Positions 25,066 through 29,487 of a DNA stretch of 34,475 bases are shown here, in pieces; within the stretch, counting starts at the first letter, position 1; the number at the start of each line of letters is the position of its first letter. Under the pieces are notes generated by a model. That model was not told the origin of the DNA, did no database searches, and saw nothing but the letters and a program-made list of their open reading frames with translations. A program made the translations under genes and the position numbers. The stretch comes from an uncultured Curvibacter sp. (GTDB lineage: Bacteria > Pseudomonadota > Gammaproteobacteria > Burkholderiales > Burkholderiaceae_C): NCBI GenBank assembly GCA_903902035.1, contig CAIUTG010000040.1, positions 1 through 34,475 on the forward strand. Reading direction: 5' to 3'.

Positions 25066-25093
25066 ATTATAAAGCCAACCGACCCGGCATCAA
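25066..25093 (-). promoter_or_regulatory. Sigma-70-type promoter for pbpG
   Basis: On the minus strand a perfect TATAAT box (25066-25071) is preceded by TTGATG (25088-25093) with a 16-base spacer. The -35 element overlaps the leuA stop codon. Initiation near 25059 would give a leader of about 87 bases before pbpG. Confidence 0.7.
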
Positions 25094-26628
25094 CCCTGTG
25101 CAGCCACCCGATCGGCCTTGGAGTGCAATTTATTCAAGGCGCTCAAATACGCCTTGGCCGACGCCACCACAATGTCCGGGTCAGCGCCGACCCCGTTGAC
25201 CACCCGCCCGCTGTTTTGCAGGCGCACGGTGACCTCCCCCTGGCTTTCGGTCGAATCGCTGATGGCGTTGACCGAATAGAGCACCATTTCAGCCCCGCTT
25301 TTGACGCGGGCCTCAATCGCTTTGAGAGAGGCATCAACCGGGCCGTTGCCCTCGGACTCGCTGGCGATCTCTTGACCATGGGCGGTAAAAACAATCGAGG
25401 CGAAAGGTTTTTCCCCGGTCTCACTGCGCTGGCTCAAGGACACAAAGGCAAAGGCCTCTTGATCGGCGGCCACGCTTTCTTCGCTGACCAAGGCCAAAAT
25501 GTCCTCGTCAAAGATTTCGCTTTTGCGGTCGGCGAGTTCTTTGAATTTGGTGAAGGCGTGGTTGATTTCTTGCTCGCTGTCCAAGCTCACGCCCAAATCT
25601 TGCAAGCGTTGCTTGAAGGCATTGCGCCCGCTCAATTTGCCCAAAACAATTTTGTTGGCCGACCAGCCCACGTCTTCGGCGCGCATGATTTCATAGGTGT
25701 CACGGGCCTTCAACACGCCGTCTTGGTGAATGCCCGAAGCGTGGGCAAAGGCATTGGCCCCCACCACCGCTTTGTTGGGCTGCACCACAAAGCCGGTGGT
25801 CTGGCTGACCATGCGGCTGGCCGCCACGATGTGCACCGGGTCGATGTTGAGGTCAAGCCCAAAGTAATCGCGGCGCGTGCGCACCGCCATCACCACTTCT
25901 TCCAAAGAGCAATTGCCCGCGCGTTCGCCCAAGCCATTGATGGTGCACTCCACCTGGCGCGCACCGCCGATTTTGACGCCGGCCAAAGAGTTGGCGACCG
26001 CCATGCCCAGGTCGTTGTGGCAGTGCACGGACCAAATGGCCTTGTCCGAATTGGGCACCCGCTCGCGCAAGGTTTTGATGAAATTGCCATACAACTCGGG
26101 CACGGCATAGCCCACGGTGTCGGGGATGTTCAAGGTGGTGGCGCCTTCATTGATGACGGCTTCCAAGACGCGGCACAAGAAGTCCACATCGCTGCGGTAG
26201 CCGTCTTCCGGGCTGAACTCCACATCCCCCACCAAATTGCGGGCAAAGCGCACCGACAACTTGGCTTGCTCCAGGACCTCCTCGGGCGTCATGCGGAGCT
26301 TTTTTTCCATGTGCAAGGCCGAGGTCGCAATGAAGGTGTGAATGCGGGCGCTGTTGGCCCCCTTCAAGGCCTCGGCAGCACGGGCAATGTCACGGTCATT
26401 GGCGCGTGACAAGGAACAAATGGTCGAGTCTTTGATGTGATTGGCAATGAGTTGCACGGCTTCAAAGTCGCCATTGCTGGAGGCCGCAAACCCGGCTTCG
26501 ATCACATCCACTCGCAAACGTTCCAATTGACGCGCAATGCGGAGTTTTTCATCCTTGGTCATGGAGGCGCCGGGCGACTGTTCGCCATCGCGCAAGGTGG
26601 TATCGAAAATGATCAATTTATCGGTCAT
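25090..26628 (-). CDS. leuA: 2-isopropylmalate synthase
   Basis: The 512-residue enzyme condenses 2-ketoisovalerate with acetyl-CoA, the first committed step of leucine synthesis. The N-terminal TIM barrel shows [15 protein letters not shown], the metal-binding HCHND with [13 protein letters not shown], and [10 protein letters not shown] linker leads to the C-terminal allosteric domain ([20 protein letters not shown]) that normally binds leucine for feedback inhibition. The start is fixed by a GGAG Shine-Dalgarno at 26635-26638. Its leader contains a terminator and a Leu-rich short ORF, which points to control by leucyl-tRNA supply. It is the last gene of the ilvBNC-pssA-leuA series. Confidence 0.97.
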
Positions 26629-26658
26629 GGTGTTCTCCAGAAAATCAAAACAATCAAC

Positions 26659-26691
26659 AAAAAAGCCCGCTGCGATGAAGCTGGCGGGCTT
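26659..26691 (-). terminator. Intrinsic terminator in the leuA leader (attenuator)
   Basis: On the minus strand AAGCCCGC (26684-26691) pairs perfectly with GCGGGCTT (26663-26670) around a 13-base loop, and a run of six T residues ends at 26659. Only 20 bases remain before the leuA Shine-Dalgarno, too few for a promoter. leuA transcripts must therefore pass this terminator. Confidence 0.85.
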
Positions 26692-26728
26692 GAGGTTTCA
26701 AGGGTAAAGAGGTTCGCGTCAGCCCGCC
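26683..26728 (-). promoter_or_regulatory. Candidate antiterminator pairing in the leuA leader
   Basis: GGCGGGCT at 26721-26728, at the very end of the leader ORF, is perfectly complementary to AGCCCGCC at 26683-26690, which includes most of the 5' arm of the terminator. The two structures exclude each other. Further complements of the upstream arm occur inside the ORF (GCCCGC read from 26812-26817, CCCGCC read from 26844-26849). They could form the protective 1:2 pairing of a classical attenuator. Confidence 0.65.
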
Positions 26729-26865
26729 TTGCTTAGCGCAAATGCAATTAGGGATAGCAGGGCCAAAGACATCCAGGCCACTTGCTGCAAGCGACGCGCG
26801 GCTCCGTCATCGCGGGCAGCGATGGCCGAGGCGGCGGCGGGTTGGCGGGAAACTGGGCGACTCAT
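26719..26865 (-). CDS. Putative leuA leader peptide (48 residues)
   Basis: The short ORF encodes MSRPVSRQPAAASAIAARDD, then a basic patch and a hydrophobic tail (WMSLALLSLIAFALSKAG). Its last 14 codons include five leucines, three of them CTA, a codon rare in the neighbouring genes. CTA codons are also the stalling codons of the enterobacterial leu leader. The stop codon lies within the antiterminator arm, so a ribosome that reaches it would mask that arm and let the terminator form. A ribosome waiting at the first CTA would leave it free. The Shine-Dalgarno is weak. The peptide is longer than the classical leader and its tail could span a membrane, so a real small membrane protein is the main alternative. 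Confidence 0.65.
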   Translation of the reverse strand: MSRPVSRQPAAASAIAARDDGAARRLQQVAWMSLALLSLIAFALSKAG

Positions 26866-26900
26866 GCGAGCAACTCTATCACAAATTTGAGGGTTTGGGC

Positions 26901-27806
26901 TTACTTGTGCAAACCGGCCTCATCGGGCTCGTCGGTCGAGGTGCTGATGACGCTCACACGCACGCCTTTGTAGCGGCGCACACCGTAAATCACATAGCCG
27001 CTCAAGGCATAAGCCACAAACAAACCCAGCAAGACCACCGGCGGGTAGATGAAGATGACCGAAATCAACAACACAATCAACACGATGGCGGCGAAAGGCA
27101 CACTTTTCTTCAGATGAAATTCCTTGAAGCTGTAAAAAGGCAGGTTGGTCACCATGGTCAGACCGCCAAACAGCATCAAGGCAAAGGTGATCCAGGTCAT
27201 TTGCGTCCAGCTGAAGAGGGCACTGTCCCCGGGGTGCACGCCTGCTTCGGTGGTCACCCAAATCAGGCAGGCCACCAAAGCGGCCGCGGCAGGAGAGGGC
27301 AAACCTTGGAAGTAGCGCTTATCCACCACGGCCGTGTTGACGTTGAACCGCGCCAAGCGCAGGGCCGCGCAGGCGCAATAGACAAAGGCGGCAATCCAGC
27401 CCCAACGCCCCAGGCCTTTCAGGGCCCATTCATAAGCGATCAAGGCCGGTGCGGCGCCAAAAGACACCATATCGGCCAGGGAATCCATCTGCTCACCAAA
27501 GGCGCTTTGGGTATTCGTCATGCGGGCGACGCGGCCATCCAGGCTGTCGAGCACCATGGCATAAAAAATACCCAAAGCGGCTTGATCAAACTGCCCATTC
27601 ATGCCCATCACCGTGGCATAAAAGCCCCCTGACAAAGCGGCCAGGGTGAACAAATTGGGCAGCACATAGATGCCCTTGATGCGACGCGGATGCGCAAAAC
27701 CACCGCCCTCCTCAGCCGCCGACACGGGGTCGGAACTGGGGCGGGTCGGGCGGGCTTCTTCTGGCATTTTTTCCGGCATTGGCATCAGGGCGATCTTAGT
27801 GCTCAA
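26901..27806 (-). CDS. pssA: CDP-diacylglycerol-serine O-phosphatidyltransferase
   Basis: The 301-residue membrane enzyme makes phosphatidylserine, the precursor of phosphatidylethanolamine. The CDP-alcohol phosphatidyltransferase motif is complete: D87-x2-D90-G-x2-A-R-x8-G104-x3-D108-x3-D112. Around it lie about eight hydrophobic segments and the typical opening RRIKGIYVLPNLFTLAALSG. The roughly 40-residue N-terminal tail is charged and probably variable, and the exact start within it is less certain. It follows ilvC by 18 bp and precedes the leuA leader, an arrangement known from betaproteobacteria in which a phospholipid gene sits within branched-chain amino acid genes. Confidence 0.95.
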   Translation of the reverse strand: MSTKIALMPMPEKMPEEARPTRPSSDPVSAAEEGGGFAHPRRIKGIYVLPNLFTLAALSGGFYATVMGMNGQFDQAALGIFYAMVLDSLDGRVARMTNTQSAFGEQMDSLADMVSFGAAPALIAYEWALKGLGRWGWIAAFVYCACAALRLARFNVNTAVVDKRYFQGLPSPAAAALVACLIWVTTEAGVHPGDSALFSWTQMTWITFALMLFGGLTMVTNLPFYSFKEFHLKKSVPFAAIVLIVLLISVIFIYPPVVLLGLFVAYALSGYVIYGVRRYKGVRVSVISTSTDEPDEAGLHK

Positions 27807-29373: not shown

Positions 29374-29487
29374 GATGAGATTCCTCTTTTCGCCGCCCTC
29401 CCCGGGCCACGGTAATGGCCTGGCTTGGCGGTCAATAGATTCGTCAAAAATAGGTGGATAAAAGCCTGAACAGGGGACTGGGTGGTC

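Follow-up and report, generated by a model that had tools for sequence, protein, structure and literature searches.

Expression of leuA, the 2-isopropylmalate synthase gene of an uncultured Curvibacter sp., is very probably governed by a ribosome-mediated transcription attenuator that would make the gene respond to leucyl-tRNA. The candidate element lies on the minus strand of the window (the whole stretch of DNA analysed, 34,475 nucleotides of contig CAIUTG010000040.1), in the gap between a pssA-like gene and leuA. Leucine attenuation had been proposed in a first-pass annotation of this DNA, and the comparison with relatives strongly supports it, as CTA-rich leaders, a terminator and an antiterminator arm in register with it are found in many genomes. 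This conservation, read from the sequences of relatives, is the decisive evidence for the observation. It adds a new lineage to a well-known attenuation mechanism.

Organization of the leuA Leader Region

Read from the pssA-like gene towards leuA, the gap contains an extended -10 element, 7 bases, an open reading frame (ORF) of 48 codons, an intrinsic terminator, a GGAG core and the start of leuA, all on the minus strand. The upstream coding sequence (26901..27740, this start being one possible start only) matches TIGR00473 with 118.4 bits against a cut-off of 107, and leuA itself (25090..26628) matches TIGR00973 and NF002087. The promoter element TGATAGAGT (26873..26881) follows the pattern TGnTAnnnT and is separated by 7 nt from the leader ATG. 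The leader ORF (26719..26865), which is probably leaderless and has no Shine-Dalgarno-like core in front of it, translates from 26865 to 26719 as MSRPVSRQPAAASAIAARDDGAARRLQQVAWMSLALLSLIAFALSKAG, followed by the stop codon; frames of 48 codons are also present at the related loci L003 and L010. Its leucine codons are TTG26, TTG34, CTG36, CTA37, CTA39 and CTA44, and the cluster of the last five (26734..26766) is the proposed leucine sensor. The three CTA codons had been recognized in the first-pass annotation, but its count of five leucine codons in the last 14 needs correction, since codon reading gives five in the last 15 and four in the last 14.

The intrinsic terminator (26659..26691, segments 3 and 4 with the U run), likewise recognized earlier upstream of leuA, consists of the stem AAGCCCGC (26691-26684) with GCGGGCTT (26670-26663) and a U run extending to 26659, and shows compensatory changes in relatives. 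The leader's last codons and stop codon carry the arm GGCGGGCT (segment 2, 26721..26728), which, read from 26728 to 26721, pairs at eight of eight positions with AGCCCGCC (26690-26683) of the terminator, exactly as had been noted; an equivalent arm is present in the aligned short leaders. The 5' arm of the terminator (segment 3, 26683..26691), recognizable by its pairing and in relatives, is common to the antiterminator and the terminator. The GGAG core (26635..26638), the putative leuA Shine-Dalgarno sequence, is situated outside the hairpin, and only about 30 nt separate the terminator from the leuA ATG.

Elsewhere on the minus strand of the window, an ilvH RNA (Rfam RF02993, 92.5 bits) is matched at 29378-29445, directly upstream of the gene for the small subunit of acetolactate synthase, so that the ilv-pssA-leuA series has a second candidate cis-regulatory RNA.

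Recurrence of the Leader and its Codon Usage

LeuA was located in all nine genomes of the genus, in 108 of 120 genomes of the family and in 104 of 120 genomes of the order, and 80 named records (including Limnohabitans, Polaromonas, Acidovorax, Variovorax, Hydrogenophaga and Curvibacter) were added. Merging of identical 300-nt upstream regions reduced 222 loci to 212 distinct regions; these are not independent, because some species occur both among the genomes and among the named records (for instance, the upstream region of genus member G005, locus L007, with only 141 bases before the contig end, is the same as in Curvibacter sp. AWTP1-17, L144). The script detected a terminator in 132 of the 212 regions, and 120 of these 132 passed a leader filter that demanded at least three leucine codons within the last 22 codons and a fitting spacing, with neither CTA nor a promoter among its criteria. 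At least one of the 120 is a misfit, namely L043, which lacks CTA and is the end of another protein.

A second scan, blind to the terminator and based on promoter, ATG and leucine ORF, was positive in 112 of the 212 distinct regions, every one of them with CTA, and the expectation that leucine codons near the leader stop would be kept in relatives was borne out by it. Under the same scan 12 of the 4240 shuffled sequences gave a leucine ORF, three of these with CTA, and none of 212 reverse complements did. The other 100 regions had no leader passing the promoter scan directly before leuA; with a relaxed -10 pattern leaders were found in 5 of these 100, the control being 14 of 2000 mononucleotide shuffles.

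The CTA content of the window leader is not a matter of chance, because six neighbouring coding sequences of the window use CTA for none of their 193 leucine codons (2215 codons in all). Throughout the 120 leaders, CTA makes up 262 of 575 leucine codons within the last 18 codons, and the count in leuA of the same loci is 13 of 2876, a partial figure given that many loci include only the first 80 bases of that gene. Glycine codons show a bias of their own: GGG is used for 63 of 66 glycines in the last seven leader codons and for 183 of 1957 in the same partial leuA set. This bias at the leader end points to selection on the RNA and supports the antiterminator. As a separate observation, 61 of the 95 short leaders end with TAG, as compared with 9 of 60 leuA genes (read in 60 of these 95 loci); UAG can pair with CTA codons, which we note as a lead only.

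Probable Promoter and Leaderless Translation

The pattern TGnTAnnnT stands before the in-frame ATG in 112 of the 120 leaders, at a distance of 6 nt (51 leaders), 7 nt (53), 8 nt (4) or 9 nt (4). With its 7 nt, the window belongs to the 104 of 120 leaders whose spacing of 6-7 nt is of the leaderless type. The consensus of the -10 element is TGTGCTACATT, and no consensus at -35 is apparent among these promoters. A Shine-Dalgarno-like core precedes none of the 112 leader ATGs versus 101 of the 112 leuA ATGs, an absence that partly follows from the -10 box filling that place. The spacing between -10 element and ATG, together with the lack of this core before the leaders, makes a dedicated leuA promoter immediately in front of the leader most likely and leaderless translation of the leader probable. 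The short internal start that the script chose first (ATG32, 17 codons) was rejected, since both the -10 element and the 48-codon frame that recurs at other loci speak for the long one. The first-pass annotation had ascribed leuA transcription to regulated read-through; while the attenuation part of that view is supported, the transcripts need not come from ilv-pssA, given the extended -10 element at 7 nt from the leader ATG.

A variant of this scheme deserves consideration. As the leader lacks a Shine-Dalgarno sequence and apparently needs a 5'-terminal AUG, the element might act as a leucine switch for RNA from its own promoter and as a plain stop for transcripts arriving from ilvBHC-pssA, on which the leader would go untranslated. 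For the free window RNA the terminator is predicted at 1.00, as a plain stop would demand, but the sister L003 is without that default (0.04), and we consider the dual role unlikely.

Terminator and Proposed Antiterminator

The structural alignment comprised 62 of the 95 short leaders, chosen by hand and mainly of the GGGC-arm type, with divergent ones excluded. Within it, terminator pairs are formed in 95.5% of cases, with compensatory changes from AU to CG in 21 and from GC to AU in 12 of the 62 sequences. Three of five covariation measures, including the number of double-change cells and the covariation score, lie above all 500 shuffles; the other two, pairs with double changes (127/500) and pair types (221/500), do not exceed them. 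When the partner strand is slid out of register, pairing drops to 32-56%. As for the antiterminator, ACGGGC:GCCCGU, 97.6% of its pair cells are formed, with two double-change cells. Thus, compensatory changes, which had been expected in both stems, are found in the terminator, whereas the antiterminator is conserved but nearly invariant and its covariation is weak; RNAalifold, run on all 62 rows, recovered the terminator alone.

Beyond this alignment, arm and partner vary jointly: the window shares the pair GGCGGGCU:AGCCCGCC with its two sisters, and L045 and L047 have UUGGGGC:GCCCCAG. Taken singly, the pairing of the window arm is only moderately unusual, since 76 of 5000 sequences obtained by dinucleotide shuffling of the ORF tail equal it, and the arms beat 95% of shuffles in 20 of 112 loci; the case rests on the relatives. 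A helix between segments 1 and 2, joining the leucine run with the stop region and CTA with UAG, pairs in 76% of cells, shows no covariation beyond shuffles in the 62-row alignment and remains a lead.

The hairpin also bears on the way in which leucine could act. Control through translation or Rho rather than through an intrinsic terminator, as proposed for some actinobacterial leuA leaders, would agree with the distant loci L042 and L044, where a CTA-rich leader with a -10-like box is present and the script found no terminator. However, the window and 120 of the 212 regions combine a leader with a hairpin and a U run, and the leuA Shine-Dalgarno sequence lies outside this hairpin, which makes such control very improbable here.

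Proposed Mechanism and Ribosome-Position Folding

Under the preferred reading, transcription attenuation, RNA polymerase would initiate at the internal promoter, whose -10 element ends 7 nt upstream of the leader ATG, and, judging from sequence and spacing, the transcript would begin at or beside the AUG and be read leaderless. With ample leucine, the ribosome would reach the stop codon and mask the arm GGCGGGCU, the hairpin would form, and transcription would terminate before leuA. Under a shortage of charged tRNA-Leu, it would stall at CTG36, CTA37 or CTA39 and leave the arm unmasked, which could then pair with the 5' half of the terminator and allow the polymerase to continue into leuA.

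This scheme was modelled by folding the RNA with the part taken up by the ribosome, to 12 nt downstream of the A-site start, masked. In the window, an A site on any of codons 34-39 gives the antiterminator a value of 0.80-0.95; on codons 40-42 the terminator has 0.80-0.94, and from codon 43 it has 1.0. Because the masked folds switch to the terminator from codon 40, CTA37 and CTA39 are predicted to sense leucine and CTA44 is not: it is beyond the predicted switch point and, in the masking model, too near the arm for antitermination to be favoured. Such closeness is not peculiar to CTA44: in 60 of 112 loci fewer than 12 nt separate the arm from the last CTA preceding it, and a stall there would mask part of the arm.

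The competing folds envisaged in the first-pass annotation are thus seen in the window, which switches from antiterminator to terminator with ribosome position, but not in five short-leader relatives folded singly (L016, L023, L183, L188 and L098), where the equilibrium favours the terminator at every position. Because of this, the switch in these five must, according to the model, be kinetic. With nascent RNA, 103 of 112 loci form the 2:3 helix at 0.5 or above with the A site on a leucine codon (101 on CTA), and in the other nine it stays below 0.5 on any leucine codon; its complete loss with the ribosome on the stop codon is a consequence of the masking rule itself.

Pairing inside the ORF had also been suggested. 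One such stretch, CCCGCC (26844..26849), a possible protector, does pair, read from 26849 to 26844, with the antiterminator arm in the minimum-energy fold of the untranslated window RNA; however, the sole close sister folded, L003, shows no such effect.

The Long Leader of the Clade

The length and membrane-like look of the window leader had been called unusual. Unusual in length it is, 95 of 112 leaders having at most 20 codons, yet 48 codons is a trait of its clade. Leaders of 36 or 48 codons with the ending (S/G)(K/R)AG before the stop are present in eight of the nine genus genomes (in the ninth, L007, the region is cut by the contig end) and in L074, and the leader of L131 has 31 codons and ends in SVAG. 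Neither the 48-codon nor the 36-codon group contains internal indels, and uncorrected pN/pS of the C-terminal part exceeds 1 in two comparisons, both with few changes. The long leader fits a translated frame under weak constraint.

Could the ORF be the gene of a small membrane protein with a function of its own, its leucine codons simply serving the peptide? The hydrophobic C-terminus, the recurrence of 48 codons in the window, L003 and L010 and of 36 codons in five others of the genus, and uncorrected N-terminal pN/pS values of 0.36-0.78 (13 comparisons, the C-terminal value being lower in most, not all) would agree with that. Against it, no Pfam or NCBIfam match was found at E <= 1, the short leaders that prevail among relatives differ in sequence, and a peptide does not account for the choice of CTA. 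Moreover, the conserved KAG end before the stop is encoded by the antiterminator arm, so a membrane-like appearance does not speak for a membrane protein. We regard this possibility as highly improbable.

Distribution and a Second Isopropylmalate Synthase

A covariance model was built from the 62 aligned sequences, and only matches of at least 40 bits were counted as strong. At E <= 5e-4 it matches 100 of the 120 family genomes, the weak matches including partial matches to the terminator; the window element itself scores only 24.4 bits. Of the 68 strong matches, 64 are followed within 2 kb by leuA on the same strand, 36 of them within 300 nt and 28 at 1.5-1.8 kb; for the remaining four, no LeuA match is listed on the contig or in the genome. 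In all five matches examined in this respect, the next gene downstream encodes an isopropylmalate synthase of another type, NF002991 (PRK03739-type); these are two of the 28 distant matches (L287 in G078 and L288 in G062), one of the four just mentioned (L284) and two matches from the order search (L231 and L232). For the other 26 distant matches, distance alone suggests the same position. The element thus appears to precede two sequence-distinct types of isopropylmalate synthase of the same function.

Several single cases may be added. In some family genomes a leuA of the PRK03739 type is followed downstream by one of the leuA_bact type, and the attenuator precedes the former (L287 and L288 examined); at L229 a like protein start was recognized by eye. 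In Limnohabitans sp. Jir72 (L145), a cultured relative, leuA itself directly follows the leader. In G052, one strong copy precedes leuA and another a PRK03739-type gene on a different contig, and L285 is a strong match in G065, a genome without a LeuA match at the cut-off.

Outside the family, strong matches were found in two genomes (G267 and G135) of one other family among 250 searched; of the matches below 40 bits in the order search, most are partial or weak and probably terminators, and they were excluded from the counts. In its own genome the model finds the window element and six weaker matches, and the two of these inspected by eye (L224 and L225) were rejected as not leader-like. At L042, L044, L045 and L047 there are CTA-rich leaders that differ in sequence and have a -10-like box 6-7 nt ahead of the ATG; in the order-level relatives L042 and L044 these leaders, located upstream of leuA and without a terminator found by the script, have 28 and 37 codons.

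That the hairpin is merely the terminator of the pssA transcript, with an ORF arisen by chance and a separate leuA promoter, is very improbable and already strongly disfavoured: its place after pssA and the moderate rarity of the arm complementarity in the single sequence would suit it, but the hairpin stands close to the leuA ATG, a promoter-like element precedes the ORF in nearly all leaders, and the CTA enrichment, the conservation of the arm and the attachment to a second leuA type would be left unexplained.

Relation to Known Attenuators

The element matches no Rfam family in the window at the gathering score, nor any above family thresholds in nine loci searched at E <= 1, where only sub-threshold matches to His_leader and asX1 appeared. 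In particular, neither a T-box nor Leu_leader (RF00512, the attenuator of the enterobacterial leu operon) was matched in the window at the gathering score or in the nine loci at E <= 1, L001, which carries the window's element, being one of them. The enterobacterial leu attenuator is ribosome-mediated and controls leuA by means of a CTA-containing leader, an intrinsic terminator and a competing hairpin. The element described here shares with it the leucine-rich leader with CTA, the terminator, a putative competing hairpin and the proposed control of leuA, and differs in having no Rfam match, in being apparently leaderless and in the long leader of one clade. Work by Vitreschak from 2004 reportedly concerns mainly gamma- and alphaproteobacteria.

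The element is not described in the available portions of the literature searched, including PMC1262725, PMC2965389, PMC4603805, PMC4833913, PMC5343134, PMC7298713, PMC8079986 and PMC8632094; Vitreschak (2004) and Lopatovskaya (2010) may hold betaproteobacterial cases. Leaderless attenuator leaders as such are already known from trpL of Sinorhizobium meliloti and leuL of Streptomyces lividans (PMC7298713, PMC8079986). In S. lividans (PMC8079986), leaderless leucine leaders precede leuA (leuL1) and leuS (leuL2); a hairpin and a U stretch follow leuL2, and leuL1 has no typical intrinsic terminator. Leaderless leucine leaders, in our case predicted, are common to both systems, whereas the phylum differs and the leuA case there is without the typical terminator. 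For S. meliloti, PMC7298713 gives a trpL transcript (rnTrpL) that begins at the leader ATG, with peptide and RNA acting in trans. Attenuation of a biosynthetic gene and a transcript start at the leader ATG, which in our case is predicted, are shared; the Trp codons and the alphaproteobacterial host are not. Finally, the actinobacterial LEU element, as presented in PMC1262725, likewise has a leader with a run of leucine codons upstream of leuA, but a pseudoknot and pairing with the leuA Shine-Dalgarno sequence are proposed there instead of a terminator switch.

For the Comamonadaceae-type Burkholderiales, the element would provide a concrete point of leucine control over leuA, present in many genomes, with one attenuator architecture that appears to stand before two sequence-distinct types of isopropylmalate synthase. 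It also suggests that leaderless leader peptides, reported in the papers considered here for an alphaproteobacterium and actinobacteria, occur in betaproteobacteria as well.
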